From an uncultured Bacteroidales bacterium (GTDB taxonomy: Bacteria > Bacteroidota > Bacteroidia > Bacteroidales > Paludibacteraceae), in contig CACXYM010000011.1 of NCBI GenBank assembly GCA_902771935.1, forward strand, positions 1 through 59,015: a stretch of DNA of 59,015 nucleotides, read 5' to 3'. The notes under the pieces are model-generated. The model searched no databases, had not been told where the DNA came from, and worked only from the letters and a program-made list of their open reading frames with translations. A program made the translations under genes and the position numbers. This document shows positions 22,901 through 52,799 of this stretch, in pieces; positions within the stretch are counted from its first letter, which is position 1, and the number at the start of each line of letters is the position of its first letter.

Positions 22901-24811
22901 ATGGATAAAAATACTTGGATCGGCTTCCTTCTTATAGCCGCAATTATTGTCGGGTTCACGCTTATTACGCGTCCTTCCAAAGAAGAATTGGCACAACGTC
23001 AGCGTTATAACGACAGCATTTCACTTGTTCGTCAGATGGAGTTTGAGGCACAACAACTGAGTGCCGCTATAGCCGCCGAACAGGAACAAAATCAACAAAC
23101 CACCAATCAACAATCACAAACCACCAATGACCTATTACCATCGGTATTTGGTCCCTTTGCCCCATCAGCACAAGGAGAGAGTAAAGAAATCGTGCTCGAG
23201 AACAACAAGGTTAAGCTCTTTATCGACACCAAGGGAGGACGTATTTCTCGCGCCGAACTGAAGGAGTATAAGGCATATGGCGATTCGGTCAATAACCTCT
23301 GTCTCTTTCGTGCTGACGAGAGTGAGTTATCGTTTACTCTCATCACGGCCAATAACCGCATCATCTCCACCAAGAACCTCTATTTTGAGCCTATTCAGCC
23401 CAATGACCAGAATGTGATCATGCGCCTGCATTCGGATGTGGAAGATGCGTATATAGACTTCGTCTATACCCTGCCTGCGGATGATTATATGACTTCCTTC
23501 GTCATTGCGCCGCATAACACCAAAGCTGTTCTTGCTCAAAACGTCAATTCGCTTGAGATGCAGTGGTCTCAGCTCATTCCACAACAAGAGCGTGGCCGTA
23601 AGTTCGAGGAGCGTTATGCACAACTGCAGTACATGCTCGATGGAGGAGACATGGAGAAACTTAGCGAATCCAAAGCCGATACCGAACGCGAGAGTGCTCG
23701 TATTAAATGGATTGGCTATAAAGATCAGTTCTTCTCAACCGTCATGATTGCCGATGAAACGTTCGATGGTTCTACGCTGGAGTCTACGCCACAGTCCGAA
23801 CATACACGATATATCAAGGAATACAAGACCCGGACGAACGTCCCGTTCGATGTTAACGGACTCAAGTCAACCGGTTTCCGCTTCTATTTCGGTCCGAATC
23901 ACTATAACACGCTTAAGGCTTACGATGCAGACAAGCCAAAGGCTGAAAAGCTGCATCTCAAAGAACTCGTGCCACTGGGCTGGAAAATAGTAAGCTGGAT
24001 CAATATGATTCTCGTCATTCCGATGTTTGACTTATTCATGGGTTGGGGACTACATATCGGCCTCGTCATCTTCCTCATGACCTTGGTTATTAAACTTATC
24101 ATTCTGCCATTCGTGTTCGCGTCTTACAAATCGAGCGCGAAGATGCGTGCTCTCAAGCCGCAGATGGACGAGATTAACGCCAAGTATCCGGCCGACAAGA
24201 TGCAGGAGCGCCAACAGGCTACCATGCAGCTTTATTCGCGCGCCGGGGTGAGTCCGATGTCCGGCTGTCTACCGATGCTCTTCCAGTTCCCGGTACTGAT
24301 GGCTATGTTCTGGTTCTTCCCTACTGCTATCGAACTGCGTGGTCAATCGTTCCTTTGGGCAGATGACCTCTCCGCTTACGATGCTATTCTCACTTGGTCC
24401 ACATCTATTCCGCTGCTTGGTACGCACTTAAGCCTCTTCTGCTTACTGATGACCGCGGTGAACATCGTTTACACCTATATCACTATGCAGCAGCAGGCTA
24501 CAGACCCGAATATGAAATTTATGAAGTACATGATGTACGCGATGCCGCTCATGTTCCTCTTTATTTTCAACGACTATGCAGCCGGTCTGAGTTACTACTA
24601 CTTCCTCAGTCTCTTGCTCACGATTATCCAAACGATGATTTTCCGCCTCTCTATTGACGAGAAGAAACTGCTTGCCGAAATGGAGGCCAATGCCAAGAAG
24701 AAAGAAGGAAAGAAAAAGTCCGGTTTTATGGCACGACTCGAAGCCATGCAAAAAGAGCAACAACGTATGGCGCGTGAGCAAGCCAAAGCAAATGCTAAAA
24801 AACTACGCTAA
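22901..24811 (+). CDS. yidC: membrane protein insertase YidC
   Basis: YidC/Oxa1 insertase of 636 residues, inserts proteins into the inner membrane alone or with Sec. N-terminal anchor WIGFLLIAAIIVGFTLI, periplasmic beta domain to about 350, then five-helix core with MRALKPQMDEINAKYPADKM (coiled hairpin) and SPMSGCLPMLFQFPVLMAMF. The C-terminus is basic (KKKEGKKKS and onward), typical for ribosome contact. The Gln/Thr-rich linker at residues 63-80 is encoded by a heptad-type DNA repeat (23092-23134). The stop overlaps the next gene as TAATG. Confidence 0.95.
   Translation: MDKNTWIGFLLIAAIIVGFTLITRPSKEELAQRQRYNDSISLVRQMEFEAQQLSAAIAAEQEQNQQTTNQQSQTTNDLLPSVFGPFAPSAQGESKEIVLENNKVKLFIDTKGGRISRAELKEYKAYGDSVNNLCLFRADESELSFTLITANNRIISTKNLYFEPIQPNDQNVIMRLHSDVEDAYIDFVYTLPADDYMTSFVIAPHNTKAVLAQNVNSLEMQWSQLIPQQERGRKFEERYAQLQYMLDGGDMEKLSESKADTERESARIKWIGYKDQFFSTVMIADETFDGSTLESTPQSEHTRYIKEYKTRTNVPFDVNGLKSTGFRFYFGPNHYNTLKAYDADKPKAEKLHLKELVPLGWKIVSWINMILVIPMFDLFMGWGLHIGLVIFLMTLVIKLIILPFVFASYKSSAKMRALKPQMDEINAKYPADKMQERQQATMQLYSRAGVSPMSGCLPMLFQFPVLMAMFWFFPTAIELRGQSFLWADDLSAYDAILTWSTSIPLLGTHLSLFCLLMTAVNIVYTYITMQQQATDPNMKFMKYMMYAMPLMFLFIFNDYAAGLSYYYFLSLLLTIIQTMIFRLSIDEKKLLAEMEANAKKKEGKKKSGFMARLEAMQKEQQRMAREQAKANAKKLR
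23092..23134. repeat. heptad-type array inside yidC
   Basis: Units TCAACAA, (A)CCACCAA, TCAACAA, TCACAAA, CCACCAA, TGACC: T-N-A starts at 23092, 23107, 23114 and 23128 (spacing 15, 7, 14). It encodes a low-complexity Gln/Asn/Thr linker. Confidence 0.6.
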
Positions 24812-25524
24812 TGCGAATCATTATTATTGGACAAGGCAACGTAGCCTGTAATCTTTTAGCGGCCTTTAATCGCAATAACGTACCTGTCGAGATGGTATCC
24901 TCCTATACCGGGTTGGATACTATCCCGCAGAATGCGGATGTGTATATCTATGCCGTACGTGACCATGCACTCGCTGAGGTCATCAACCAGGTGCACACAC
25001 CTCAACGCGCACTGCATATACACACGAGTGGCACTATTCCGGTCTCTATCTTCGGGCCGGATAAACCCCACTGCGGTGTACTCTACCCTTTCCAGACGCT
25101 TTCTAAGGCGCATATCATCGAGGACTTCACCACCGTGCCTGTCTTCATCGAAGCACGCGGGATAGACGATATCTCGGCGCTATATACCCTGGCACTCACT
25201 ATCACGCCGCATATCTACGAGGCGTCACAATCCGACCGTGAAAGGCTGCATGTGGCGGGCGTGTTTGCCAATAACTTCTCCAACCTCATGTACGCTATCG
25301 CTAAGGATATCCTCCGTGATACCCATATCCCGTTCTCAGCGCTCTTACCGCTTATTGACGAGACGGCGGCTAAAGTGCACACGCTGCCACCAAGAGCTGC
25401 GCAGACAGGACCTGCTGTCAGGGGAGACCAAGACGTGATGGCGCACCACCTCGAGCTCATTAAACAGCCCGAGTACCGGGAGGCATATAAGCTGCTATCT
25501 TCGCTTATTAAGCATGAAGATTAA
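24811..25524 (+). CDS. Rossmann/DUF2520 oxidoreductase-like protein
   Basis: A 237-residue protein with an N-terminal NAD(P)-binding fold (MRIIIIGQGNVACNLLAAF; GxGxxA) and a C-terminal helical DUF2520 domain (VFANNFSNLMYAIAKDIL, LPLIDETAAKV, TGPAVRGDQDVMAHHLEL). The fold resembles pyrroline-5-carboxylate reductase and ketopantoate reductase, but the substrate of DUF2520 proteins is unknown. In Bacteroidales it is commonly a single-copy housekeeping gene. It overlaps yidC by one base and mtaB by 11 bases, so it belongs to the same transcript. Confidence 0.85.
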   Translation: MRIIIIGQGNVACNLLAAFNRNNVPVEMVSSYTGLDTIPQNADVYIYAVRDHALAEVINQVHTPQRALHIHTSGTIPVSIFGPDKPHCGVLYPFQTLSKAHIIEDFTTVPVFIEARGIDDISALYTLALTITPHIYEASQSDRERLHVAGVFANNFSNLMYAIAKDILRDTHIPFSALLPLIDETAAKVHTLPPRAAQTGPAVRGDQDVMAHHLELIKQPEYREAYKLLSSLIKHED

Positions 25525-26746
25525 GATTGTCACATTAGGCTGCAAGCTCAACTTCGCGGAGTCGAGTGCCATCATGCACCAACTGCTCAGCGAGGGTCAC
25601 ACACGGGTCAAATCCGGCGAGCAGGCAGATATAGTAATCGTTAACACCTGTACCGTCACCGATACTGCCGACCATAAGGACAGGCAGGCTATTCACCGCG
25701 TGAGACGAGAGCATCCTAATGCCAAGATCATCGTCACCGGTTGCTATGCCGCCCTGCTGCAGCAGAAGCAGGAACGGAACGAACAACTCGCTTGCGCCGA
25801 TACCACCATCCTCGATGAGATAGATGTGCTGAAGCCTAAGGACCTCGTTAACTTTGTTAACGCCTACTCTCGTGACGACCGAACCCGATGCTTCCTCAAG
25901 GTGCAAGACGGTTGCAATTACTTCTGCACGTACTGTACGATTCCTTTCGCACGCGGGCGATCGCGCAATCCGTACATTAAAGATATCGTTGCCCAAGCGG
26001 AACAAGCGTTGCAGGACGGTGCCAAAGAGATTATCCTTACCGGCGTTAACATAGGCGACTTCGGTCGCTCCACCGGAGAAACGTTTCTTGACCTAATCAA
26101 AGCCCTCGATTCCCTTTCACCAATAACCTCTAACCTATCACCTTTACCCGATTACCGCATCCGGATCAGCAGTTGCGAGCCGAATCTCTTGAGCGATGAG
26201 ATCATTGACTTTGTCGCTAAGAGCCGACATTTCGCGCCGCATTTTCATATTCCCTTGCAATCAGGCAGTAACGAGGTGCTCCGTATCATGCACAGACGAT
26301 ATACGCGCGAGTTGTTTGCAGAGCGTGTAGCGCATATCAAGCGGGTCATGCCGCATGCTTTTATCGGTGTCGATTGCATGGTAGGTGTACGTGGTGAGAC
26401 CGAAGAGTGCTGGAACGACTATCTACAGTTTATTGAGCAACTACCTGTTAGTCAACTACATGTCTTCACCTATTCCGAACGGGCTAACACGCGCATGCTC
26501 GACATGGACCTGTATGTCGTGCCGCAAGCGGAACGCGAACGCAGAAGTAAGATTTTGCACAAAATAAGCGACGAGAAACTCGCTGCCTTTTATGCCCAAC
26601 ATAAAGGCTCTCAAGCCACAGTCCTATGGGAATCAAAGAAAACAGGAAACCAAATGAGCGGCTTTACAGAGAACTATATCAAGATATACGGTCCTTATGA
26701 CAAGGAGAAAATCAATACTTTTGAACATGTAACAATCAACGTATGA
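25514..26746 (+). CDS. mtaB: tRNA t6A37 methylthiotransferase
   Basis: MtaB, 410 residues: radical-SAM enzyme that converts t6A37 to ms2t6A in ANN-decoding tRNAs. It uses two [4Fe-4S] clusters: the N-terminal UPF0004 cluster with Cys10, Cys46 and Cys77, and the radical-SAM cluster CNYFCTYC with Cys134, Cys138 and Cys141. LTGVNIGDFG and HIPLQSGSNEVLRIMHRRYT are typical. The C-terminal TRAM-like part is short. A heptad repeat array (26117-26150) encodes the extra loop SPITSNLSPLPD before YRIRISSCEP. Confidence 0.93.
   Translation: MKIKIVTLGCKLNFAESSAIMHQLLSEGHTRVKSGEQADIVIVNTCTVTDTADHKDRQAIHRVRREHPNAKIIVTGCYAALLQQKQERNEQLACADTTILDEIDVLKPKDLVNFVNAYSRDDRTRCFLKVQDGCNYFCTYCTIPFARGRSRNPYIKDIVAQAEQALQDGAKEIILTGVNIGDFGRSTGETFLDLIKALDSLSPITSNLSPLPDYRIRISSCEPNLLSDEIIDFVAKSRHFAPHFHIPLQSGSNEVLRIMHRRYTRELFAERVAHIKRVMPHAFIGVDCMVGVRGETEECWNDYLQFIEQLPVSQLHVFTYSERANTRMLDMDLYVVPQAERERRSKILHKISDEKLAAFYAQHKGSQATVLWESKKTGNQMSGFTENYIKIYGPYDKEKINTFEHVTINV
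26117..26150. repeat. heptad array inside mtaB
   Basis: TCACCAA TAACCTC TAACCTA TCACCTT TACCCG: five registers, starting at 26117, 26124, 26131, 26138 and 26145, exactly 7 bases apart. It encodes a loop between two conserved segments of MtaB. Confidence 0.8.
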
Positions 26747-28593: not shown

Positions 28594-28594
28594 T

Positions 28595-30061: not shown

Positions 30062-30918
30062 GCCGCGTCATGATTGGGCAAGCAGTCTAACTCCCAGACC
30101 GGCACAGCCTCTATCACCTTACGTATCACCTCGTACAACTCGTCCCGCACGGCTTCCGTGAACTTCAGTCCGCTGCATGAGCCGTATATCTCCACATACG
30201 CCTTGCTCGGACGCGCCTTGGTGATGCTATTCCGCGGTGCCTGATGCAGGCGCACAAATGCTCCCACGCGCGCACGTGCGTTTTTATAACACGGAGTCTT
30301 ACCGCTCCAGGGGCTGCCATAGACCCAAACGCCGTCGTCTTCGATACGCACTACCGGATTATCGTCATTGAGTAACCATGCGTCATCAAACGCCTCCTGC
30401 CACATCCGCGAGTGAGTAGACTTGCCGGTGCCCGACTTTCCCAAGAACAGATAGCCTTTTTCATCCTTTACAACCACGGACGCATGCAGCTCCAGCGCTT
30501 TGTACTTGAGGGCTGTGAAAGCGAATAGAAGCATCGTCGCATTATTGATGGCGAAGTCCCTCACGGCTGCTATCGGAGAACAGACCACTAACTCTGCTTC
30601 GGCGAAGTTCTCACTTGCTTGTAGCATTGCGCAGATCTCACTATCGCGTGTCATGGACATATTGATGAGCCAGCCGCGCGAGCTTTGGTAGATTTCCAAC
30701 CTCGGCATATCGGCTTCGCTGATGTCATTATGCACCAGCGTCCAGTCGCCTTTTTCCGATAGACTATCCGTTAGCCGGTCACTGACGCGCAGGATGAACA
30801 AAGGCGTAGCCTCCACATGTGCCTCAGGCACAATAAACGGCTGATAGTTGCCAGGCACCTCGCTAAACGCTAAACCCTCAACCTTAAACGCCAACCCGCC
30901 TATTGCGCAATAAATACA
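30022..30918 (-). CDS. HPr-kinase-like ATP-binding protein
   Basis: A 298-residue protein related to the C-terminal domain of HPr kinase/phosphorylase. P-loop LFLGKSGTGKSTHSRMW at about 155-170, followed by LLNDDNPVV and the GSPWSGKTPCYKN segment typical of the Bacteroidota branch. It lacks the HPrK N-terminal domain and substrate signature, and the true substrate is unknown; relatives often accompany PqqD-like or natural-product genes, none of which is here. ATG 30918 overlaps the upstream DMT-transporter gene by 19 bases. The first residues (IGGLAFKVEGLAFSEV) are encoded by a heptad repeat array. Confidence 0.75.
   Translation of the reverse strand, partial: CIYCAIGGLAFKVEGLAFSEVPGNYQPFIVPEAHVEATPLFILRVSDRLTDSLSEKGDWTLVHNDISEADMPRLEIYQSSRGWLINMSMTRDSEICAMLQASENFAEAELVVCSPIAAVRDFAINNATMLLFAFTALKYKALELHASVVVKDEKGYLFLGKSGTGKSTHSRMWQEAFDDAWLLNDDNPVVRIEDDGVWVYGSPWSGKTPCYKNARARVGAFVRLHQAPRNSITKARPSKAYVEIYGSCSGLKFTEAVRDELYEVIRKVIEAVPVWELDCLPNHDAAYLCCESVSIKST
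30864..30898. repeat. heptad array at the start of the HPrK-like gene
   Basis: Plus strand TAAACGC TAAACCC TCAACCT TAAACGC CAACCCG, registers at 30864, 30871, 30878, 30885 and 30892. It lies just inside the N-terminus of the gene read on the opposite strand and encodes GGLAFKVEGLAF. Confidence 0.8.
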
Positions 30919-31547: not shown

Positions 31548-32909
31548 CTACCATGTATAGTCAAATCGTTCAATGTCTTCTTCGATCAGCGGATTGCCGA
31601 GCTGCACCTCAACGAACGTGAGGTTGGTAATCGCCCGAATCGCATGATACTGCTCTCGCCGAATGATGCAAACATCTCCGCGCTGTATCTTCCGCCTCTC
31701 GCCGTCGAGGACGAACTCGCCTTCACCGTCAATAATGGTCCAGACCTCGTCTCTGCGATGGTGAATCTGGTAAGATATGTTCTTTCCTGCCTGCAGAGTG
31801 ATGGTCTTGGTCAGAGCTCTTTCGCCGGGCTGATACTCAACGTCGCTTAGCACCTTGTATGTCCCCCAGCGACGCTCTTCGTACATGGGGCGCAGGGTTA
31901 GTCCGTCCACATATTTCTTTATTGTCTCTGACTTGTCTTTGGCGCAGACTAATATGCCGTCCGGGCTGGCTGCTACAACCACGTCGCGTAAGCCGTTCAC
32001 GAACACGGGCACTTCCTGTTCGTTGATGACGTGGGTGTTCTCGTTCTCGTCTCCCATGAGCACATTACCTATGGCGTGTTTGCCGAGCTCTTCGGTCAGA
32101 GTGTTCCATGTGCCGAGGTCTTTCCATTTGCCGCTATACGGCACCACCGCTACACTCTTGGCTTTCTCTGCCACTTCGTAGTCGAAGCTAATCTTAGGGA
32201 ACTCTCCGTATCGTGCGTAGGTTTCGTCGAAGCCGGAAGCCTGCATGTATTGGCGCACTATGTGCATCATATAGCCGAGTTGGAAGGCAAAGACGCCGCC
32301 GTTCCAGAAGGCTCCCTCGCGCAGGAGCTCTTTCGCCACCTCTGTGGTCGGTTTCTCCGTAAAACGCGATACCGGCAATGCCTCCTCTAAACGCTCAACG
32401 CTAAACGCTAAACTGTCGTTCCGTACGGGAACGACGTAGCCGTATTTCTCCGAGGGATACGTCGGCTTGATGCCCATGAGGACGAGGTCGGCGGCGTTGT
32501 TTTCGACGGCGTGTGCCATCTTGGCTATGGTTTGGAAGTAGCCTATTTCTGTATAAGGGTCACTGGGCATGACTACTACTACCTCGTTGTCGCTGCATTG
32601 TTTGACGAAGTGGAGGTATGAGACGGCAAGCGCGATAGCGGGGAAGGTGTCGCGGCGTTCGGGTTCGGCAACGATGTCGACGTCGGAGCCGAGTTGGTTG
32701 ATTATACTGTCTCGTTGCGCAGCGTTCGTGGCGAAAGTGATCTGCGCTTGCAGTTTCGCCTCACGAGCTTGACGTACCACGCGTTGCACCATCGACTCCA
32801 TCTTCCCGTCTGCCGTTTCGAGTAACGGCAGGAACTGCTTCGAACGAGCATTATTCGACAGCGGCCAGAGCCGCTTACCGGAACCACCCGATAAAAAGAT
32901 CAATTGCAT
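31548..32909 (-). CDS. manC: mannose-1-phosphate guanylyltransferase/mannose-6-phosphate isomerase
   Basis: Bifunctional-type enzyme, 453 residues, makes GDP-mannose from mannose-1-phosphate for glycans, with a C-terminal cupin isomerase domain. N-terminal nucleotidyltransferase signature LSGGSGKRLWPLS plus FTEKPTTEVA and NGGVFAF; the phosphomannose isomerase-like cupin covers about 335-450 (YQIHHRRDEVWTIIDGEG, GDVCIIRREQYHAIRAI). It begins eight bases after the secreted gene upstream. The loop NDSLAFSVERLEEALPVS before FTEKP is longer than usual and partly encoded by a heptad array. Confidence 0.92.
   Translation of the reverse strand: MQLIFLSGGSGKRLWPLSNNARSKQFLPLLETADGKMESMVQRVVRQAREAKLQAQITFATNAAQRDSIINQLGSDVDIVAEPERRDTFPAIALAVSYLHFVKQCSDNEVVVVMPSDPYTEIGYFQTIAKMAHAVENNAADLVLMGIKPTYPSEKYGYVVPVRNDSLAFSVERLEEALPVSRFTEKPTTEVAKELLREGAFWNGGVFAFQLGYMMHIVRQYMQASGFDETYARYGEFPKISFDYEVAEKAKSVAVVPYSGKWKDLGTWNTLTEELGKHAIGNVLMGDENENTHVINEQEVPVFVNGLRDVVVAASPDGILVCAKDKSETIKKYVDGLTLRPMYEERRWGTYKVLSDVEYQPGERALTKTITLQAGKNISYQIHHRRDEVWTIIDGEGEFVLDGERRKIQRGDVCIIRREQYHAIRAITNLTFVEVQLGNPLIEEDIERFDYTW
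32388..32415. repeat. heptad array inside manC
   Basis: Plus strand TAAACGC TCAACGC TAAACGC TAAACTG, four registers exactly 7 apart (32388, 32395, 32402, 32409). It is opposite to the coding direction and encodes part of an extra loop in ManC. Confidence 0.8.
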
Positions 32910-39887: not shown

Positions 39888-40510
39888 AGTAGTATCAAGT
39901 AAGTTGCCATAGTGTGAGAAAATGCGCCGAGTGTGATGAAGATGTGCCAAATAGCGTGCCAGTAAGGGTGCTTTTCGTCGCCATGGAAGAAATAAGCTCC
40001 CACGGTATAGAAGACGCCTTCCGCCACAATCCACCAGAAGGCTTCGTGCGGCATATTGAGCCACATGGGTTTGAGGATTAACAGCGCCACCCAGCCCATA
40101 GCGAGGTAGAGGATAAGGGATAGATTCGGGTACTTACCGAGGGCTATTACCTTACCGAAAATACCAGCCGCGACGCAAGTCCAGAGGAAAATAAACAGCG
40201 TCCAGCCTACCCAACCGCCCACCACATACAGGCAAATGAGGGAATAGGACCCTGCAATCATGAAATAGATAGCGATATGGTCAAGAATGCGTAGTCTTGT
40301 TTTGATAGTGGGCTCTTGCACAGCGTGGTAGAAGGTAGAAGCAGCAAACATCTGCACCAACCCGAGGAGAAAGAGAAGAGTGCCGGAGAGTGCAAAGGAA
40401 TTAAGCGCTAATGCCATACGCACCAGCGGCTTAATCACAAAAAATGACCCGATAAGCGGAAAAAGATGGGTCAGCGTGTTAGCTACCTCTTCACTGGACC
40501 AACGCTTCAT
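39884..40510 (-). CDS. hemolysin III/PAQR family membrane protein
   Basis: A 208-residue, seven-helix membrane protein of the PAQR/hemolysin III family. It starts with SSEEVANTLTHLFPLIG and keeps the conserved metal-site residues: FAASTFYHAV, LRILDHIAIYFMIAGSY, and HPYWHAIWHIFITLGAFSH. Bacterial members affect membrane fluidity or act as putative metal-dependent hydrolases; function is not settled. It sits between a PepSY-like lipoprotein gene (one-base overlap) and a PlsC acyltransferase (ATGA overlap), a context that fits lipid homeostasis. Confidence 0.88.
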   Translation of the reverse strand: MKRWSSEEVANTLTHLFPLIGSFFVIKPLVRMALALNSFALSGTLLFLLGLVQMFAASTFYHAVQEPTIKTRLRILDHIAIYFMIAGSYSLICLYVVGGWVGWTLFIFLWTCVAAGIFGKVIALGKYPNLSLILYLAMGWVALLILKPMWLNMPHEAFWWIVAEGVFYTVGAYFFHGDEKHPYWHAIWHIFITLGAFSHTMATYLILL

Positions 40511-41039: not shown

Positions 41040-42080
41040 GTGGAGACTCTTTTAGGTAAAAACCTGGCAGAATTGCAAGCGGTGGCAGCCGCAGTAGGTT
41101 TGCCCCGTTTTGCAGGCAAACAGTTGGCAGAATGGCTGTATGTGCGTCGTGTCACTTCGTTTGACGAAATGACTAATATTTCGTTGAAGGGTCGTGAGTC
41201 GTTACGTGCCGCCTACTCTATTGGCCGTCATGATCCGATAGCTCAAGCCACATCGGCGGACGGGACGGTGAAATATCTGTTTGAGGTGGAGATAGCCGGC
41301 ACGAAGCAGCATATAGAGACCGTTTATCTGCCGGAAGATGACCGCGCAACACTATGCGTCTCGACTCAAGCGGGCTGCAAGATGGGCTGCCGCTTCTGCA
41401 TGACCGGTACACTGGGTTTCCACGGCCAACTGTCTGCCGGAGAAATACTGAACCAAGTATTCAGTATTCAGTGCTCAGCAGTCAGCAATCAGCTGCCGGA
41501 CTTAACCAACCTTGTACTGATGGGTGAAGGAGAGCCGATGGACAATATAGACAACGTACTCCGTTCGCTGGAGATACTGACGTCTTCATATGGTTGCGGA
41601 TGGAGTCCGAAGCGTATCACGGTGTCAACGGTAGGTGTATTGGACGGTTTACGTCGTTTTCTAAACGAGAGTGAATGCCACTTGGCGATATCGCTGCATA
41701 ATCCTTTTGGGTCAGAGCGTGCGGCGATTATGCCTTCCGAGAAAGCGTGGCCTATACGTGACGTGATGGCCCTTCTTCGCGAGTATGACTGGAGTCACCA
41801 GCGGCGTGTGTCGTTCGAATATATCTGCTGGGGAACGCAGAACACAACGATTAAGCACGCAAAAGAATTGCTTCGGATACTGAACGGCTTGGAGTGCCGA
41901 GTGAACCTGATACGTTTCCACGCAGGTGTAGATAAAGAATTTGCCGCTTCAGACGAACGGCAAATGGTTTGGCTGCGCGATTATTTGTCGGAGCACGGAG
42001 TGACGACGACTATACGCAAATCGCGAGGGGAAGATATCTTAGCAGCCTGCGGAATGCTGGTTAATTCGTTGAGCGTTTAG
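41040..42080 (+). CDS. rlmN: 23S rRNA/tRNA adenine-C2 methyltransferase
   Basis: RlmN, 346 residues, methylates A2503 of 23S rRNA and A37 of some tRNAs using a radical-SAM ping-pong mechanism. Radical-SAM cluster CKMGCRFC (Cys113, 117, 120), the MGEGEP motif, TVSTVG, and the mechanistic cysteine in ILAACGML near the C-terminus. The start is GTG 41040, the first plausible in-frame start after the transcription start (VETLLGKNLAELQ). The segment SIQCSAVSNQ between GEILNQVF and LPDLTNLVLMG is encoded by a perfect heptad array. Its last codons overlap the convergent DUF4293 gene by 4 bases. Confidence 0.93.
   Translation: METLLGKNLAELQAVAAAVGLPRFAGKQLAEWLYVRRVTSFDEMTNISLKGRESLRAAYSIGRHDPIAQATSADGTVKYLFEVEIAGTKQHIETVYLPEDDRATLCVSTQAGCKMGCRFCMTGTLGFHGQLSAGEILNQVFSIQCSAVSNQLPDLTNLVLMGEGEPMDNIDNVLRSLEILTSSYGCGWSPKRITVSTVGVLDGLRRFLNESECHLAISLHNPFGSERAAIMPSEKAWPIRDVMALLREYDWSHQRRVSFEYICWGTQNTTIKHAKELLRILNGLECRVNLIRFHAGVDKEFAASDERQMVWLRDYLSEHGVTTTIRKSRGEDILAACGMLVNSLSV
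41461..41495. repeat. heptad array inside rlmN
   Basis: TCAGTAT TCAGTGC TCAGCAG TCAGCAA TCAGCTG: five units exactly 7 apart, with the constant TCAG and three variable bases. It encodes a non-conserved loop in the radical-SAM barrel. Confidence 0.85.
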
Positions 42081-44492: not shown

Positions 44493-45653
44493 TTAATGTA
44501 TTAGTAATTCTTCGGTTATGCGGCGTGCTGCAGTGTCCGTAGCCACATAATCATCGTACGTCGGCTTGGCGATAAAGGTGGCCTTCGACATCGCTTGCGC
44601 GATGATTTCACTCATCTGAAGGAAGCCACATCTGCCTTCTCGGAAAGCGAGATTGACTATTTCGTTGGCAGCATTAAGCACACAGGGCATATTGCCGCCT
44701 TTAGCCGTGGCCTCGTACGCCAGGCGCAAGTTCGGGAAGCGCTCGAGGTCGGGTTTCTCAAATGTCAAGTCTTTGATGGCTAATAAATCCACTCTCGGAA
44801 AGTCGCTTAAGATACGCTCAGGATACGCTAAAGCGTATTGTATAGGCAAGTGCATATCCGGAGCACCTAATTGCGCCTTCACTGCGCCATCGGTGAACTG
44901 CACCGCCGAATGCACTATCGACTGCGGATGAATCAGCACCTCTATCTTTTCCGCCGGCACGCCAAACAGCCACTTTGCCTCAATCACCTCAAAGCCCTTA
45001 TTCATCATGGAAGCCGAGTCAATAGTAATCTTCGCGCCCATGTCCCAATTAGGGTGCTTGAGTGCATCGGCAGCTGTGACATGTGCCATTTGGTCCAAGG
45101 AATAAGTGCGGAACGGTCCACCGGAAGCCGTGAGAAGGATTTTCTCTATCTCATTGGTATGCTCGCCTACAAGTGACTGAAAAATAGCCGAATGTTCACT
45201 ATCCACCGGCAAAATAGGTGCATGATGTTTTTGCGCCTGTTCGCATATCAATTCGCCGGCAACGACGAGTGTTTCTTTATTGGCAAGTGCAATTGTCTTA
45301 CCCGCCTCAATAGCCGCTATCGTCGGACGTAAACCCGCATAACCGACCATCGAAGCAACGACGATATCGATACTGGGGAAGGTCACCATATCGGCAATAG
45401 CATCTGTGCCTGCCCAAATCTTGCCTTGGAAGTGTAGTGCTGAGAGTTTGGCCTTGAGCGCATCATACTGCGTCTCATCCGCGATGCACACCACTTCGGG
45501 TTTGAACTCGCGTGCTTGCTCGACCAGCAAATCCACGTTGCGATGCGCACAGATAGCATACACCGCGAAACGGTCAGGATTACTCCGAACCACATCCAAT
45601 GTCTGTGTGCCGATAGAGCCGGTTGAACCTAATATGGCAAGTTGTTTGGGCAT
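44493..45653 (-). CDS. dxr: 1-deoxy-D-xylulose 5-phosphate reductoisomerase
   Basis: DXR, 386 residues, makes 2-C-methyl-erythritol 4-phosphate in the non-mevalonate isoprenoid pathway with NADPH and a divalent metal. N-terminal NADPH loop GSTGSIGTQTLDV, then LANKETLVVAG, PVDSEHSA (metal and substrate), TASGGPF, and HPNWDMGAKITIDSASMMNK. Length is typical. It overlaps the LytM gene by one base and is followed by rseP, a common order. Confidence 0.95.
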   Translation of the reverse strand: MPKQLAILGSTGSIGTQTLDVVRSNPDRFAVYAICAHRNVDLLVEQAREFKPEVVCIADETQYDALKAKLSALHFQGKIWAGTDAIADMVTFPSIDIVVASMVGYAGLRPTIAAIEAGKTIALANKETLVVAGELICEQAQKHHAPILPVDSEHSAIFQSLVGEHTNEIEKILLTASGGPFRTYSLDQMAHVTAADALKHPNWDMGAKITIDSASMMNKGFEVIEAKWLFGVPAEKIEVLIHPQSIVHSAVQFTDGAVKAQLGAPDMHLPIQYALAYPERILSDFPRVDLLAIKDLTFEKPDLERFPNLRLAYEATAKGGNMPCVLNAANEIVNLAFREGRCGFLQMSEIIAQAMSKATFIAKPTYDDYVATDTAARRITEELLIH

Positions 45654-46489
45654 TAGAAAACAATCACTTCTTCCGGATTTACACTCTCACCACGACGCCA
45701 TAACTCAAACAACAGCAGCTCGTTATTGGACACGATTCCAATACTCTCGCCTTCTTTAACCACATCTCCTGAATGTTTGAGCGGCTTGTCCAGATTGCGA
45801 TAAATAGAGATATAATCGCGGTGCTCCAACAACATCATATAGGTATTGTTTATCTGATACTGCACCAACAACACGGTACCAGGCAACACGGCCGTTGCGT
45901 TTTCATTGGCAGGCGTTTGGATAGCTACGCCAAACTGTTTATTCTCCGGCAAATAATGCTCCATCACGACTCCGTGAGCCGGCCTGAAGAATGTAACCAC
46001 TGGCGCAACCTGCTGCACGTCAAAGAGTTGCAAGTTATCCTTTTCCTTGGCTTCATATTGTGCCATAAACTCTTCAGTCGCTTCACTCTTGGCTTTCTGC
46101 AACAATTGTTCGCGTTGCACAATCTGCAGCGAGTCTAAACTCTTCACCGTATCCGACTTCACTTCACCCGCCATAATATCGCGGATAACGGACAGATACT
46201 GCGTCTGCACGCTGAGGGTCGAGCTGAGCGAATCAACACGGACTGTTTCCTCTACTAAACGCTGGCGAATACTCTCCGAATAACCCGGCAGAATATTACG
46301 TATAGGCGTGTAGAAAATAAGTAAAGAGTAAATGCCTAACGTGATGAAGAAAGAAAGCGTCAAGAGCACAAACACAGACATTCGACTCAGCCTCGTGTGC
46401 CAAATCTCAGTAAAAGTATCCTCGTTGAGAATGCTTAAACGATACTTATACAGCAGTCGTTTCCAAAAACCATCTCTCTTTTCCGGCAT
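45653..46489 (-). CDS. LytM/M23-like envelope protein, zinc ligands lost
   Basis: A 278-residue protein with one membrane helix (about 35-57), a coiled region (about 70-160) and a C-terminal M23-like domain (about 170-278). The fold marks are present (RNLDKPLKHSGDVVKEGESI, then LLLFELWRRGESVNPEE). The zinc ligands are not: the HxxxD motif reads around KQFGVAIQT, with no His and Ala for Asp, and the HLHFE motif reads LLLFELW. It therefore cannot be an active zinc endopeptidase; by analogy with EnvC or NlpD it could activate amidases or be structural. Its start lies directly after a heptad array that fills the gap from the fumarase gene. Confidence 0.85.
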   Translation of the reverse strand: MPEKRDGFWKRLLYKYRLSILNEDTFTEIWHTRLSRMSVFVLLTLSFFITLGIYSLLIFYTPIRNILPGYSESIRQRLVEETVRVDSLSSTLSVQTQYLSVIRDIMAGEVKSDTVKSLDSLQIVQREQLLQKAKSEATEEFMAQYEAKEKDNLQLFDVQQVAPVVTFFRPAHGVVMEHYLPENKQFGVAIQTPANENATAVLPGTVLLVQYQINNTYMMLLEHRDYISIYRNLDKPLKHSGDVVKEGESIGIVSNNELLLFELWRRGESVNPEEVIVF

Positions 46490-46492
46490 TTT

Positions 46493-46555
46493 CTTTCGAC
46501 TTTTGACTTTTGACTTTCGACTTTCGATTTTTTGCTTTCGACTCTTAACTAATTA
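46493..46555. repeat. heptad array filling the fumarase-LytM gap
   Basis: Minus strand: TAATTAG TTAAGAG TCGAAAG CAAAAAA TCGAAAG TCGAAAG TCAAAAG TCAAAAG TCGAAAG, nine consecutive 7-base units. The first two units include the last codons and stop codon of the fumarase gene; the last unit ends four bases before the ATG of the LytM gene. Confidence 0.92.
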
Positions 46556-48188
46556 TGGTGCAGCCTGCACAGGGCTTGAGTTGTTTGAAGAAATCATTTC
46601 CTTTGTCATCCACAAGAATAAACGCAGGGAAATCTTCCACTTCAATCTTCCAAATAGCCTCCATACCGAGTTCGGGATACTCAACGCACTCGATGGACTT
46701 GATGTTATTCTGCGCAAGAATAGCGGCAGGGCCGCCAATCGAACCAAGGTAGAATCCGCCGTGCTTTTGGCAAGCATTCGTTACGTCAATGGAACGATTA
46801 CCTTTAGCGAGCATGATGAGCGAACCGCCGTGCTCTTGGAACTCATCCACATATGGGTCCATACGTCCTGCCGTTGTCGGTCCCATCGAACCGCAAGGCA
46901 TTCCTGTAGGCGTTTTAGCAGGACCTGCATAATAAATAGGATGATCCTTAAGATATTGCGGCATTGGTTCGCCTGCGTCGAGACGAGCTTTGATTTTCGC
47001 GTGCGCAATATCACGGCCAACGATAATCGTGCCATTCAGACTCAAACGCGTACCAATAGGATATTTGGTAAGGATAGCGCAAACGTCTTTCATCGGCTGG
47101 TTGAGGTCGATACGAACAGCATCGCCTTCGCCTGCGTTACGCAACTCTGCCGGAATGAGACTGCCCGGATTATTATCCATCTTCTCAATCCATATACCTT
47201 CCTTATTGATTTTGCACTTGATATTGCGGTCAGCAGAGCAGCTGACACCCAGACCGATCGGGCAACTTGCGCCGTGACGCGGCAGACGGATAACGCGTAC
47301 GTCATGCGCCATGTATTTACCGCCGAACTGCGCGCCAAGACCGATTTTATAAGCCTCTTGCAGCAGTTGTTTCTCCAATTCGATATCGCGGAAAGCACGA
47401 CCGGAAGCATTACCTGTTGTAGGCAGACTGTCGTAGTAATGTGTCGAAGCCAGTTTAACCGTCAGCAGGTTCTTCTCGGCACTCGTACCGCCGATAACGA
47501 TAGCAATATGATACGGCGGACAAGCAGCTGTACCCAGACTCTTCATCTTCTCTACAAGGAACGGAATGAGTGTTCCCGGATTCTGGATGCGCGCTTTGGT
47601 CTCTTGGTAGAGATAGGTCTTATTGGCACTTCCGCCACCTTTGGTTACGCACAAGAAACGATACTCATTTCCCTCCGTCGCTTCCAAGTCTATCTGTGCG
47701 GGCAGGTTGCACTTCGTATTCACCTCGTCGTACATGTTCAGCGGAGCATTTTGACTATAGCGCAGATTGCACTCCGTATAGGTATTATATACACCTTCGC
47801 TCAATGCCTCTTCGTCACAGAAGCCAGTCCAGACTTCTTGTCCCTTCTCGCCATGAATAATAGCCGTTCCGGTATCTTGGCAAAGCGGCAGTTGACCTTT
47901 GGCAGACACTTCTGCATTGCGCAAGAACGTCAGTGCCACGTACTTGTCGTTATCCGATGCTTCCGGGTCACGCAAAATCTTCGCCACTTGCTCATTATGA
48001 CTACGACGCAGCATGAAACTCACGTCATGAAAAGCCTGTTGCGCCATCAGCGTCAGTCCTTCAGGCTGCACTTTCAAAATCTCGTGTCCTTCAAAATTAC
48101 CTACCGACACATAGTCTTTCGTCAACAGATAATACTCTGTTTCGTCTTTGCCGAGTTGGAACATCGGCTGGTATTCATAGTTCTTCAT
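46545..48188 (-). CDS. class I fumarate hydratase
   Basis: Iron-sulfur fumarase of 547 residues, hydrates fumarate/malate; in an organism of this type it mainly runs towards fumarate and succinate. The alpha part (to about 330) and beta part are fused, as in FumA/FumB. The [4Fe-4S] cysteines lie in [18 protein letters not shown] and [15 protein letters not shown]. The beta domain carries [18 protein letters not shown]. The start is ATG 48188; an in-frame GTG lies three codons earlier. The opposite strand is also open for 639 codons, but only as a shadow. It belongs to the transcript starting at 49443. Confidence 0.95.
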
Positions 48189-48201
48189 AGTATGCACTTA
48201 T

Positions 48202-49380: not shown

Positions 49381-49442
49381 AATAATACCTATTTACTGCC
49401 TACTCTTCTACGGATTTTCGGCACACTCCACCAATTTGGCGG

Positions 49443-49474
49443 CAAAGGTACAAAAAATATTGCATCTATGCAAA
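49443..49474 (-). promoter_or_regulatory. promoter of the secreted YD-protein/fumarase transcript
   Basis: Minus strand: TTTG (49474-49471), 20 bp, TACCTTTG (49450-49443). The inverted repeat TTGCAT-CT-ATGCAA (49460-49473) overlaps the -33 box. It can drive seven genes down to DUF4293. Confidence 0.9.
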
Positions 49475-49561
49475 CTTTTTACCTTTTTTTTGAGAAATAA
49501 TTCCAAGTTGACAAGTTTACGTACAAAAAATACACTTTTTACAAAAAAAATGCTCAAAAAT

Positions 49562-49592
49562 TTTGTCAGTTCAAAAAAAAGCAGTACTTTTG
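49562..49592 (+). promoter_or_regulatory. promoter of tRNA-Lys
   Basis: TTTG (49562-49565), 19 bp, TACTTTTG (49585-49592). The leader between about 49599 and the tRNA at 49721 contains GGGGTCCCCG and the hairpin GGGCATAGCCC. Confidence 0.8.
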
Positions 49593-49720
49593 CAGCCGGT
49601 TTCCAAAAATTGGAGTGTTCGGGGTCCCCGGAAATTTTAATTTTTTGGGAAAGCGAAGCGTAACACGGCGCACTTTACAAGGGCATAGCCCGTAGTCGTG
49701 CAAGTGTTAACGCAAGCGTA

Positions 49721-49793
49721 GTCTCCCTAGCTCAGTTGGTAGAGCAACTGACTCTTAATCAGTGGGTCGAGGGTTCGAGTCCCTCGGGGGACA
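49721..49793 (+). tRNA. tRNA-Lys (anticodon CTT)
   Basis: Full cloverleaf: acceptor GTCTCCC with GGGGGAC, D arm with AGCTCAGTTGGTAGAGC, anticodon stem ACTGA/TCAGT around the loop CTCTTAA (anticodon CTT), and T arm CGAGGGTTCGAGTCCCTCG. Discriminator base A; CCA is not encoded. Confidence 0.96.
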
Positions 49794-49794
49794 C

Positions 49795-49836
49795 AAAACA
49801 GATGGACTGCCTTCAGGTAGCCCATCTGTTTTGTTT
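49795..49836 (+). terminator. tRNA-Lys terminator
   Basis: Long hairpin with outer stem AAAACAGATGG/CCATCTGTTTT and inner stem CTGCC/GGTAG, ending in TTTTGTTT. It begins two bases after the tRNA. Confidence 0.88.
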
Positions 49837-49850
49837 CGAGGGACTCGAAG

Positions 49851-49917
49851 AGTCCCGAGTGGGGCGGAGGTGTCCCCGCTTAACGGGGAAACCGGCTTCC
49901 GCCGGAAGGGGCTTTTT
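49851..49917 (+). repeat. structured 67-bp element, copy A
   Basis: Multi-hairpin element: TCCCCG/CGGGGA, then CCGGC/GCCGG (or the alternative CTTCCG/CGGAAG), ending GGGGCTTTTTT. It is 64/67 identical to copy B at 49944-50010. A further hairpin, related in sequence to the tRNA T arm (CGAGGGACT/AGTCCCGAG), lies at its 5' side. Confidence 0.85.
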
Positions 49918-49943
49918 TGGTGGTGCTTTACCTCGAGGGATGT

Positions 49944-50010
49944 AGTCCCGAGTGGGGCGGAGGTGTCCCCGCCAAACGGGGAAACCGGCATCCGCCGGAA
50001 GGGGCTTTTT
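49944..50010 (+). repeat. structured 67-bp element, copy B
   Basis: Second copy of the 49851 element; the three differences fall in loop or tetraloop positions (CTTAAC versus CCAAAC, GGCTTCC versus GGCATCC). It also ends in a T-run and lies 20 bp before the promoter of the AmgK-RapZ gene. Confidence 0.85.
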
Positions 50011-50030
50011 GAATTTTTCCAATTTAAATA

Positions 50031-50062
50031 TTTGGAGGATTGCATTTTTTGTTGTATCTTTG
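50031..50062 (+). promoter_or_regulatory. promoter of the AmgK-RapZ fusion gene
   Basis: TTTG (50031-50034), 20 bp, TATCTTTG (50055-50062). The first in-frame ATG after it is 50072. Confidence 0.9.
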
Positions 50063-50071
50063 CAGCCTAAA

Positions 50072-51472
50072 ATGCAAACAACTACTATGAAACAATCCGG
50101 TAGCAATCGTATCTACTCCCGCGAAGCCGATCCATCAGGCAATACTTTTATTCGCGTTCAAGGCACGTCACGCACAGAAAACCATGCTTTTATCACCATG
50201 GCAAGGCATTTTCGCGCGCTCAACCTGCCCGTGCCTGAAATCTATACAGTCAGCCAAGACGAGATGACATACACCCAGCAAGATTTGGGCGACACCTTAT
50301 TATTTGACTATATACGTAGCGGACGAGAGAATGGTGATTGGACAGAAGAGCAAATCTCTATGCTCGAAAAGACAATGCGCCAACTCGCCCATATTCAAGT
50401 CGAAGGTGCTCAAAACATGGATTGGTCGGTATGCTACCCCATTCCGGCTTTTGACCGGAAGAGCATTTTCTGGGACCTCAATTACTTCAAATATAACTTC
50501 CTCAAGCTCACAGGTATTGATTTCTCCGAGCCGGAACTGGAAAACGAATTTGAGAAACTCGCAGACGCACTCTTGGAAGTCCCGTGCGACGTTTTTATGT
50601 ATCGCGACTTCCAAAGTCGCAATGTGATGATTTATGAAAACGAGCCCTATTTCATTGACTTTCAGGGAGGTAGACGCGGCCCCATCTATTACGATTTAGC
50701 TTCGTTCCTTTGGCAAGCCAAAGCCAATTATCCGCAATTGCTACGAGAGCAACTCCTCAACGCTTACTTTGACGAACTTGAGAAGATTAATTACAAATCA
50801 CAAATCACCACGGCTCTGCCGATCGACAGAAATTACAAATTACAAACCTTTGTTCTCTTCCGCACTTTGCAGGTTCTCGGTGCCTACGGCTTCCGCGGAC
50901 TCATCGAGCGCAAGCAGCATTTTATCGACTCTATTCCGTTCGCAATAAAGAACCTCAACGAACTTTTCGACAATAACACGGACCTGAAAGCGGAGTTACC
51001 TCTCCTCTACATCCTTTCCACCGAATTACGCAAAAAGTGCGAGCGCATTGCGAGACCCTGCCCTGACGCCAACTTAACCTTAACTGTGGACATACTGTCG
51101 TTCAGTTTCAAGAAAGGCTTACCTGCCGACCCGTCCGGCAACGGTGGCGGCTATGTATTTGACTGCCGTAGCACACATAATCCCGGCAAATACGAGGAGT
51201 ACAAACAATTAACCGGCCTTGATCAGCCGGTCATTGACTTTCTGGAGTCGGATGGCGAGATACTCACCTTCCTCGACCATGTGTATGCTTTAGTGGATCA
51301 CCACGTAGAACGATTTATCGAACGAGGATTCACGCACCTGCAGATAGCTTTCGGTTGCACGGGTGGTCAGCATCGCAGCGTCTATTCGGCAGAAGCAACG
51401 GCTAAACATCTGCGCGCTAAATATCCCGGAATCAACATCTGCGTGACGCACCGAGAACAAACTAACGGCTAA
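50072..51472 (+). CDS. amino-sugar kinase-like protein fused to a RapZ C-terminal domain
   Basis: A 466-residue two-domain cytoplasmic protein. Residues about 1-330 are an APH/AmgK-type kinase (COG3178): loop [10 protein letters not shown], catalytic [10 protein letters not shown] (Asp179, Asn184) and metal motif IDFQGG (Asp196), then YYDLASFLW. AmgK phosphorylates MurNAc or GlcNAc at C1 in wall recycling. Residues about 335-466 match the RapZ C-terminal domain, which binds GlcN6P in Escherichia coli: [42 protein letters not shown]. Start options are ATG 50072 and ATG 50087. A heptad array encodes an insertion near residue 241-260. Its 3' end overlaps the convergent glycosyltransferase by 11 bp. 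Confidence 0.85.
50791..50846. repeat. split heptad array inside the AmgK-RapZ gene
   Basis: TTACAAA TCACAAA TCACCAC (50791-50811), then 21 bases, then TTACAAA TTACAAA (50833-50846). It encodes an extra loop in the kinase domain. Confidence 0.75.
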
Positions 51473-52799
51473 GTCGAGCGCGAAGTTCCCACGTGCGGAT
51501 TCTGTCCTTGTACCAGTTATTGCGGTTCATAGCCACAATATCGCAGTTCGCGTCGGAATTATCTTCCCAACGACGGCAGTTATACACCACATCGTATATT
51601 CGTCCAATCTTATACTCGCGACTCAAGCGCAAACCTACCGCATAATCTTCTCCGTACTTCGTAGTCGGGAAGTTAATCTCCTTTAGCACAGGCACATAGA
51701 AACCACGAGGTGCACCAAGACCATTAATGCGAAGAGCATTATTCATACCATTTTTATCTGTCCATTCGCGGTGGTCTATCACCCCAGGAGGTAACTCACG
51801 GCCATTGATATCAGTCATTCGGTAAGTTCCCACTACCATTGCGCACTTTTGCTCCTCAAAAGCGTCTATAAACCGCTGAACCGTGTTTTCGTCGAAATAC
51901 GTATCATCGCTATCCAACTGAATGGCATAGAGACCACATTTAGGATGGTGTAATGCAGCATTCCAGTTGCCGCCGATAGCGTGCCAAGTCGGATCTTGAG
52001 CAATATAAATCAATTTATCATTCTCACCATTAAGGCGAAGCCGGCTCATTTCATCATTAATTACATCAACCGTTCCGTCTGTCGAGTTATCGTCCACGAC
52101 AATCACATTATATGTATATGGCGCGCGCACGCGCTGGCTCAATGCACTCCGTATCGCATCGCCTATCGTACGAACTCTATTGCGGCATGGAATAATCACG
52201 CTCGCCGTCACTGGATAACTCTCGGCTCTCGGCACCTTTTGACTTTCGACTAATTTTAGCTGTCGATAGTCAACCAATGCGCCTAATTGTCTCAAATGCG
52301 CCGTTACGCACTTCTCCATCTCCACTTGGACTGCGCGATTCTTCGGGTCCACATAGTCAAACAGTTTCTCGCCCGACTTGCGCAGATCGGTCTCTACATC
52401 GTAGTACAAGAACTCCGGGATATGCACTATCTCACCCACTCTGCTCAATCGCAGACGCAAGTCATAGAAACCAGCAAACTCATAGTTTACATCCATTTGA
52501 GCTGCAACTTGCTTCAAAACAGCTACGCGCACTAAGATAGCGCTTCCAAAATCAAAATCGTCGCGCAAGGCTCCATCTTGATAATCAATCACAGGCGCAG
52601 GCTCCGGATTAAAGTGATCGCTATACACCATAACTGCGGTGGTATCATCACCAATCTGCTCCATACGTTGCAAGCCAAAAGCCACCCAACATATTTCTTC
52701 CCGCAATTGGATTAGGCACCATTTCCCTTCTGCCTTTGAGGCAATGTCTTTAATCAGAGCACTTGAACATACTCTTCCCGGCAATACAAAACTATTCAT
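51462..52799 (-). CDS. glycosyltransferase family 2 protein
   Basis: A 445-residue glycosyltransferase. The C-terminal domain (about 195-445) is a standard GT-A/GT2 fold: [33 protein letters not shown], and the DSDD metal motif in QLDSDDTYF. The N-terminal domain (about 1-180) resembles a decayed second GT-A fold ([47 protein letters not shown]). No membrane helices. Acceptor unknown. ATG 52799 is fixed by the promoter at 52817; the longer open frame begins inside that promoter. A partly decayed heptad array (52237-52264) encodes the linker between the two domains. Confidence 0.85.
52237..52264. repeat. decayed heptad array inside the glycosyltransferase gene
   Basis: Minus strand TCGACAG CTAAAAT TAG TCGAAAG TCAAAAG. 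The two last units match those of the array at 46493-46555. It falls between the two glycosyltransferase domains. Confidence 0.55.

Follow-up and report, generated by a model that had tools for sequence, protein, structure and literature searches.

Several families of tandemly repeated heptamers can share one genome in cyanobacteria, as do the STRR heptamers of Calothrix. Within the Bacteroidetes, MacGregor (2015, PMC4679880) describes repeats of the heptamer TAACTGA in five members, including Paludibacter propionicigenes, and direct repeats of the same unit in marine Beggiatoaceae and some Cyanobacteria. Rehm (2015, PMC4692102) describes the heptamers GGGAATC and GGGGA(C/T)T of Xanthomonas and Nostoc. 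Units of 7 nt were the commonest class of long repeat in most of the genomes surveyed by Mrazek (2007, as cited in PMC4679880), and Mrazek and Huang (2014, PMC4060949) emphasise, for the genomes they name, how under-represented such repeats are within coding regions. Such repeats raise the questions of why heptamers prevail among longer bacterial repeats and of how a single unit reaches dozens of unrelated places.

We analysed a stretch of 59,015 nt (the window) from an uncultured Bacteroidales bacterium of the Paludibacteraceae, together with loci from its relatives; the searches within the genus covered 101 species. The original prediction had likened the heptad arrays of this DNA to the cyanobacterial STRR, which was apt, as here too several tandem heptamer families occur within one genome; a 50-kb stretch of a Nostoc azollae plasmid, one short stretch only, held one lag-7 array, with a unit outside the list of this genus. 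The further remark that no described equivalent was known in Bacteroidales was too strong, given the TAACTGA repeats of P. propionicigenes (PMC4679880). Like those repeats, which are mostly intergenic, the arrays are tandem heptamers at many loci, with some in open reading frames, and are missing from the matching spacers of some relatives. Unlike TAACTGA, where one unit dominates, 136 distinct units make up 392 arrays in this genus, and whereas the reading-frame cases described by MacGregor lie at protein ends, many of ours lie inside conserved enzymes. TAACTGA itself is the unit of 2 of the 392 arrays; its doublets occur in 11 of 61 genomes of the genus (1-3 matches each, one in the window's own genome) against 2 of 61 for the reversed heptad. 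The heptamers of Xanthomonas and Nostoc are likewise dispersed at many loci and variable between related species, but those described in PMC4692102 are G-rich and quadruplex-forming, and neither GGGAATC nor GGGGATT was the unit of any of the 392 arrays. In contrast to the genomes named in PMC4060949, about a third of the arrays (131 of 397) were called inside genes, and 214 of 397 were intergenic. A literature search, thin on subscription journals, did not turn up a paper on heptads inserted into Bacteroidales enzymes. The repeats belong to a kind that is known from bacteria but has been poorly accounted for; in this genus they are unusually dense, and proteins tolerate them to an unusual degree.

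In the window, 10 segments with a lag of 7 scored at least 8, seven at least 10 and four at least 12. Order-2 and order-4 Markov simulations (100 each) gave means of 1.3-1.4, 0.09-0.10 and 0.01, and maxima of 5-7, 2-3 and 1, at the same thresholds. The remaining lags from 4 to 14 yielded 0-3 segments scoring at least 10. The excess extends genus-wide, with 80-175 segments per Mb against 12 per Mb in other Bacteroidales families (168 kb from 14 genomes). The arrays are real, and their excess over chance is confirmed in both window and genus; the refuting condition named in the original prediction, as many 7-periodic runs in shuffled sequence, fails. Across 76 Paludibacteraceae loci, heptamers were the leading unit length among tandem runs: 241 segments were found at lag 7, 42 at lag 8, 41 at lag 11, 32 at lag 9, eight at lag 10, seven at lag 6 and none at lag 5. 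The arrays exceed chance length, as do long simple sequence repeats with units of 5-11 nt. With regard to the smaller excesses at 8 and 11 bp, the idea that 8-bp arrays are a heptad plus one base proved weak (32 of 82, against 22.4 +/- 3.8), and 11-bp arrays held a common heptad at chance level (30 of 108, against 28.3 +/- 4.3). Arrays containing N, or mostly accounted for by periods of 1-3 bp, were excluded. Loci L220-L222, which overlap the genome of L047, were left out of the vocabulary, orientation, stop-in-array, simulation, 8- and 11-bp, T-N-A-by-unit and unit-position counts, and were kept in the gene/intergenic split (397 arrays), the family comparison (168 kb) and the junction-end counts (181 arrays).

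Arrays were found where they had been predicted, with corrections to boundaries and unit numbers (Table 1). The strongest, expected to comprise nine units from 46493 to 46555 and to include a stop codon, does fill its gene junction, occupying the space between the ATG of the M23 gene (46487-46489) and the fumA stop codon (46545-46547), but its core is shorter and the stop lies just outside it. The array expected at 52237-52264 in a glycosyltransferase is present but holds only two units, and the one expected at 50791-50846 in rapZ resolves into two short arrays. After the same GMLVNS-type end of RlmN at which the window carries a two-unit remnant, L055 and L061 carry a (CTAAACT)n array, the sites having been matched by eye. 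Two segments scoring 8 (40327-40341 and 52219-52233) are at chance level.

Table 1. Heptad arrays of the window and the genes flanking the junction array
Feature	Position	Strand	Best-scoring segment	Remarks
TCRAAAG heptad array, fumA-M23 junction	46493-46543	-		lag-7; about 7.3 units, one degenerate
fumA	46545-48197	-		
M23-peptidase gene	45653-46489	-		
Two TCRAAAG units, linker just ahead of glycosyltransferase domain	52236-52249	-		encode LVESQK
rlmN loop array, TCAGnnn	41456-41495	+	41456-41493	within 13-residue loop; lag-7 score 16
Two-unit remnant, RlmN C-terminus	42066-42079	+		weak alone; missed by score alone
mtaB array	26117-26150	+	26124-26143	encodes SPITSNLSPLP; score of best segment only 8, weaker units further outward
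manC array, TAAACGC/TCAACGC	32387-32415	-	32387-32413	encodes DSLAFSVE
First rapZ linker array, TTACAAA/TCACAAA	50789-50808	+		
Second rapZ array, TTACAAA	50830-50846	+		
Array near start of HPrK-like gene	30861-30898	-	30861-30889	lag-7 score 12
Irregular heptad tract, Q/N/T-rich segment of YidC	23092-23139	+	23095-23139	lag-7 score 10.5; best segment irregular

The vocabulary of units was observed to be restricted. The 136 distinct units compare with 285 expected, and since intergenic arrays alone are also restricted (91 distinct units against 162.8), stop avoidance does not explain it. Pairs of arrays with the same unit within a species numbered 90, against 7.4 under letter shuffling and 31.1 +/- 6.2 under shuffling of species labels; when arrays less than 3 kb apart were merged, the excess over label shuffling was modest (49 pairs against 24.2 +/- 5.3, the largest shuffle reaching 50). 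Restricted vocabulary and extra sharing within species together mean that slippage from random seeds alone fails. In the window's own genome, of which 439 kb of 2.06 Mb were sampled, some stretches on C6, C13 and C38 having been picked because they hold TCAAAAG matches, TCRAAAGTCRAAAG gave 81 overlapping matches, hand-merged to 38 loci, and the reversed control gave none.

It had been proposed that units follow a T-N-A rule, with T at position 1, A at position 3 and position 2 variable. With free choice of register, T1 and A3 hold in 5/5 units in rlmN, 4/4 in mtaB, 4/5 in the HPrK-like gene, 4/4 in manC, 3/3 and 2/2 in rapZ and 1/1 in the glycosyltransferase, and in 4/9 of the strongest array. 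The pattern was present in 23 of 35 arrays of the own genome (22.0 +/- 2.5 when the letters of each unit were shuffled), in 183 of 241 arrays of relatives, many of them orthologous (154 +/- 6.2), and in 92 of the 136 distinct units (78.5 +/- 4.8). The rule was rejected, as the own genome is at shuffle level and the strongest family breaks the pattern; with the real but mild excess in relatives, T-N-A amounts to no more than a weak tendency. Nor is position 2 the most variable, its value of 0.095 lying below that of position 4 (0.126).

Comparison with orthologues bore out in part the proposal that the arrays were inserted, revealing insertions or longer linkers in mtaB, manC, rapZ and the fumA-M23 junction. 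The mtaB segment with the array is 7-9 aa longer than in five of seven orthologues, including by 9 aa that of G083 (91% identical), and shorter than in the other two; the manC segment is 7 aa longer than in G083 and 6-9 aa longer than in three others, while L162 exceeds it by 1 aa and L163 is just 2 aa shorter, and in both genes linker length differs among relatives for other reasons too. In the first rapZ linker, L049, L096 and L077 show heptad-encoded peptides from other units, and the second rapZ array adds a net 8 residues between ALP and FVLF that are missing in all eight aligned orthologues. When the fumA-M23 junctions of relatives were inspected by eye (for the 30 best of the 93 genomes in which FumA had a match), 21 of 30 had no array-like spacer, seven had clear arrays, which use several different units, and two were doubtful. 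The HPrK-like gene had a single orthologue (L158), of about equal length. In rlmN, many orthologues retain the 13-aa loop, some with DNA heptads such as AATCACC and others with none, and further orthologues have a loop of 4-7 aa. The other refuting condition named beforehand, equal loops lacking DNA heptads, thus holds in part for rlmN, whose loop is older and inherited. Fresh insertion of every array was therefore ruled out for rlmN, where the loop predates the species of the window.

Over 76 coding arrays, the orthologue gap fraction was 0.195 in the array against 0.024 in random windows drawn from those proteins, with 21 of the 76 gap-free against the orthologues used. Among relatives, self-periodic insertions of at least 12 nt had period 7 in 26 of 30 cases (from 151 insertions in all, counted per pair, so that one event may count repeatedly). 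The fumA genes of L075 and L088 contain a 30-nt GTCGAAA insertion relative to L063, at 91-92% DNA identity, and the displayed flanks of the empty site in L063 hold no copy of the unit. Unit number also changes by 14 nt between close relatives. Of the 64 arrays showing a gap, only 2 had a net gap length divisible by seven residues; coding insertions are therefore not simply three-unit slippage steps, and that origin was set aside.

The same protein sites carry arrays repeatedly: among 884 pairs of arrays in orthologous proteins, pairs that are not mutually independent, 182 overlap against 35 under random placement, and in 117 of these 182 the units differ. In the 13 long-loop species, the long loop of fumA hardly varies in net length and has its SDEEALS end in common, and within one tight clade the units of L060 are strongly unlike those of L075 and L088, while L063 is empty.

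Since 7 is not divisible by 3, an array of heptads yields the identical seven-residue peptide whichever frame is read; a stop-free unit is thus safe in any frame, and a stop-bearing unit stops all three. Of the coding arrays, 60 were stop-free in the sense direction only and 11 in the reverse case, and 41 of the 47 that are open in both directions are read as the more hydrophilic of their two peptides. In junctions of co-oriented genes the bias is reversed, with stops on the sense strand (82 against 29), and the upstream stop codon lies inside the array in 98 of 180 junctions. With gene starts taken from a home-made gene caller, 134 of 181 such intergenic arrays overlap the upstream stop or start no more than 10 nt from it, and 76 of 181 end within 10 nt of the downstream start. 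Through this frame independence, heptad arrays can generate linker peptides and stop codons in a simple way.

We observed excess, insertion, a restricted and partly species-specific vocabulary, recurrence at sites and an orientation bias. The explanation that we favour, while giving it only about an even chance, is that short heptad tracts are copied to new sites and then shaped by slippage, decay and purifying selection. The genus holds many small families of heptad arrays, with units of 7 bp and fewer of 8, 9 and 11 bp, and tracts of existing units would be copied into new places with no need for a dedicated element; the most plausible route would be break repair, or template switching guided by microhomology. 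Slippage would then alter unit number, point mutation would blur the array, and purifying selection would settle survival at gene junctions, where arrays often supply the stop codon of the upstream gene, and in hydrophilic surface loops. Against this explanation, no copying event was caught with an identified donor, the same-unit excess over label shuffling is modest after merging, and 21 of 76 coding arrays are gap-free. Some loops, such as that of rlmN, also hold their length while their units change, a pattern that insertion by itself cannot account for. A bolder version, which we put forward tentatively and would doubt sooner than defend, is an undescribed process moving short heptad tracts from place to place, a micro-transposition lacking a classical element, which would put different units repeatedly at the same loops of the essential enzymes FumA, RlmN, Mfd and RapZ and rewrite many gene ends via stop codons. 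If true, frame-independent peptides would routinely furnish new protein sequence.

Local slippage guided by an intrinsic preference is a possible but less probable explanation: arrays would be born in place, the replication machinery favouring realignment by 7 nt (and 11 nt), and the vocabulary would arise because only some heptamers slip well. It agrees with the view in print that the polymerase grips 7 nt at a time (Mrazek 2007; cited in PMC4679880 and PMC4692102), with the 14-nt changes between close relatives, and with the presence of TCRAAAG in a distant genus, where 16 of 23 genomes hold it, a finding as compatible with an intrinsic vocabulary as with spread; the reversed-heptad control of that count is not a clean negative, because in several genomes the reversed heptad is itself repeated. 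However, a seed could not fit into junctions with 0-3 nt from stop to start, none is seen at the 30-nt fumA insertion, and same-unit sharing within species is above label shuffling. Plain loss of MutS is not the cause, since MutS-family proteins were found in 25 of 25 genomes. An old insertion followed by gene exchange, in which a single allele with the long loop is spread through homologous recombination before its heptads are remodelled, seems quite improbable. If fumA alleles passed between species in this way, the result could look like repeated insertion, and the near-constant fumA loop with its shared end and the 13-residue rlmN loop of many species speak for it; yet it leaves unexplained the intergenic arrays, the families at 38 loci of one genome, and the units that differ within a tight clade containing an empty site.

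We consider it unlikely that the arrays are selected regulatory or translational elements, such as three-frame stop insulators, leader spacers or protein-binding sites. Their crowding at upstream stops and the sense-strand stop bias would suit such a role, and MacGregor (PMC4679880) proposes a translational one for TAACTGA near start codons, but many arrays lie inside housekeeping enzymes, array-less species retain the same genes, units at a single site differ between species, and the stop bias may follow from A-rich leaders and from insertion into the ends of genes. Chance, codon usage or assembly artefact is very improbable as an overall explanation: metagenome-assembled genomes can hold errors and the segments at 42066-42079, 40327-40341 and 52219-52233 are weak, but the Markov simulations speak against it, the same excess runs across 76 loci from mostly differently named rumen and gut assemblies, and the insertions align in frame within conserved enzymes. 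A general requirement for reverse transcriptase was also considered and is unsupported: RVT_1 was found in 5 of 16 genomes of the genus (draft genomes, one family), with one in G000 and none in the array-rich G007 and G009 (52 and 38 heptad matches, in a count whose reversed-heptad control is likewise not a clean negative).

This genus of gut and rumen bacteria offers many species, dense arrays, close relatives with and without an array at a given site, and arrays in conserved enzymes, so that trees can date when arrays arise, are copied and are lost. Its commonest family, TCGAAAG, varies mainly at position 3, with G changed to A in 33 of 149 units and C to T at position 2 in 12 of 149, and the main variant looks like an ordinary CpG transition, a further point against the copying explanation. 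A hairpin-like insert was observed within TCGAAAG arrays as one sequence only, twice in L128 and once at a locus of the own genome; hairpin-like inserts are in the style of cyanobacterial small dispersed repeats.

Tandem 7-base units (heptads), detected as lag-7 segments and termed arrays below, are in excess in the window: lag-7 runs far exceeded those in simulation and those at other lags, and the originally listed array positions were correct within small shifts, apart from two very weak items. The host's draft genome comprises 46 contigs (2.06 Mb), of which the window is contig C11. RlmN relatives place the host in a rumen and gut genus of Paludibacteraceae (Bacteroidales) known through MAGs; the closest named record shares 83% identity in RlmN. 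At a score of at least 12, 439 kb of the own genome yielded 35 lag-7 and 25 lag-11 segments, accompanied by harmonics at lags 14, 21 and 22; 11-bp arrays are its second most frequent class, and some of their units are common to different loci. Paludibacteraceae relatives (76 loci, 1.37 Mb) gave 241 segments at lag 7, 42 at lag 8 and 41 at lag 11, the rarer classes being lag 9 (32), lag 10 (8), lag 6 (7) and lag 5 (0). Fourteen genomes from other families of Bacteroidales (168 kb) gave two lag-7 segments and 118 kb of mixed other Bacteroidota gave three, one of them poly-A (four loci of this set by themselves, 76 kb, held three). The contrast in density is about tenfold, a figure that is only approximate because the outgroup counts are small.

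Among 397 lag-7 arrays, 214 were intergenic and 131 lay within called genes, the remainder being at gene ends or contig edges, in sequence of which 75-89% was called as coding. Genes were called with a purpose-written, simple codon-based caller, so start positions are rough. An array was present in 124 of the 854 co-oriented gene junctions examined in relatives, and 98 of 180 co-oriented intergenic arrays contained the upstream gene's stop codon. The stop codon that had been placed within the window's fumA-M23 junction array actually adjoins it.

Coordinates of individual repeat features
Feature	Sequence	Position	Description
fumA-M23 junction array	window	46493-46543	
11-bp tandem array	window	16965-17110	intergenic; TGTGATTACTA-like
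Tandem repeats	window	16521-16904	periods 20, 44/89 and 21 bp; same long spacer as the 11-bp array
Compound block	own genome, contig C6 (in locus L022)	83434-85401	TCGAAAG arrays interleaved with other heptads; higher-order repeat
Third copy of TCCGGACGAAGTCCTAAAG	own genome, contig C2 (L235-L238)	near 161.4-162 kb	

Whether arrays are indels relative to orthologues could be assessed for 76 of 131 coding arrays, those with enough orthologues. The gap fraction was 0.195 for these arrays and 0.024 for random windows (Wilcoxon p about 8e-9); 21 of the 76 lacked any gap. A total of 151 insertions of 12 nt or longer separated relatives at 78% or more DNA identity. Thirty of them were self-periodic, 26 with period 7; the clearest, a 30-nt run of GTCGAAA repeats, lies in fumA of loci L075 and L088. 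FumA matches were found in 93 genomes, and in the best 30 of these the spacers of the fumA-M23 junction, judged by eye, were not array-like in 21, clear arrays in seven and doubtful in two. The junction is empty in G083, the closest relative by MtaB and M23 identity. Its units are TCGAAAG in the host and in the relative G084, and elsewhere ATTACGA, GTTTAGA, GGTTAAN or 8-bp units.

Certain protein sites carry arrays repeatedly, often of different units. In FumA, otherwise about 90% conserved, one loop at residue ~126 takes 8-12 extra residues from differing heptads (L053, L060, L066, L074, L075, L077, L088, L094 and L099). Of the 38 species scored for this loop, 13 had the long form and 25 the short one, and loop length changed at least 11 times on a tree of 47 species, built from four proteins by a quick method with gappy columns removed and SH-aLRT support only. 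DNA-level heptads, of several units, were visible by eye in nine of the 13 long loops and missing from the other four. Of 884 array pairs in orthologous proteins, among them fumarase, Mfd, Dxr, RlmN and the AmgK-RapZ fusion, 182 overlapped, where random placement gave 35; in 117 of these 182 the units were more than one base apart.

All frames of a heptad array yield the same peptide of seven residues. Coding arrays stop-free on one strand only were open in sense in 60 cases and on the opposite strand in 11. Where both strands were open (n=47), the more hydrophilic peptide was read in 41 (mean GRAVY -1.64 versus 0.69). Arrays between co-oriented genes showed the opposite bias, with stops in sense in 82 versus 29. 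We read these biases as insertion either way round followed by selection, gene-end arrays providing new stops; alternatively, A-rich leaders may cause the stop bias between co-oriented genes.

The proposed T-N-A rule (T at position 1, A at position 3, position 2 variable) had no excess in the own genome (23 of 35 versus 22.0 expected) and a mild one in the relatives (183 of 241 versus 154 ± 6.2); among distinct units the count was 92 of 136 versus 78.5 ± 4.8. Variability at position 2 did not exceed that at several other positions, and arrays chosen for another spaced pair showed a similar dip at the chosen positions. In the TCGAAAG family, frequent variants fall at CpG.

The unit vocabulary is restricted: 392 arrays gave 136 distinct units, where shuffling the letters of each unit would give 285. 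Pairs of arrays that share a unit within one species numbered 90, against 7.4 expected from letter shuffling and 31.1 ± 6.2 from shuffling species labels; with arrays less than 3 kb apart merged, 49 remained against 24.2 ± 5.3 (label shuffling). A search of the own genome for doublets of TCRAAAG (TCGAAAG/TCAAAAG) gave 81 overlapping hits, which hand merging reduces to 38 loci; the reversed control gave no match there. With up to two mismatches, the triplet was present in 13 of the 25 genomes of the genus that were searched. The results thus show array excess, insertion, recurrence, a restricted vocabulary and selection, whereas copying of tracts from existing arrays into new sites is inferred; such a vocabulary would fit it. 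The vocabulary is partly common to lineages far outside the genus, which limits this argument: exact triplets were present in 23 of 395 Bacteroidota genomes, and 16 of these 23 belong to one distant genus of another family (g26; 16 of 23 sampled genomes positive). No donor array was identified for the proposed copying, and no machinery was linked to the arrays. All 25 of 25 genomes encode MutS-family proteins, and array-rich genomes such as G007 lack reverse transcriptases.

The g26 arrays show the same A/G variation as those of the host's genus. Reversed-pattern arrays were seen in five of 23 g26 genomes.

In published work, units of seven bases lead among long simple repeats in many genomes (as cited in PMC4679880). 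TAACTGA repeats are described from Beggiatoaceae, Cyanobacteria and Bacteroidetes, Paludibacter among them (PMC4679880), and heptamers that form quadruplexes from Xanthomonas and Nostoc (PMC4692102). Our literature search found no published account of such density, so many families or repeated insertion into the same housekeeping-enzyme loops.

A hairpin-like 19-mer, TCCGGACGAAGTCCTAAAG, lies within TCGAAAG arrays, twice in L128 (the fumA-M23 junction of G084). Small repeats are nested in cyanobacterial heptamers, and the 19-mer may be a similar arrangement.
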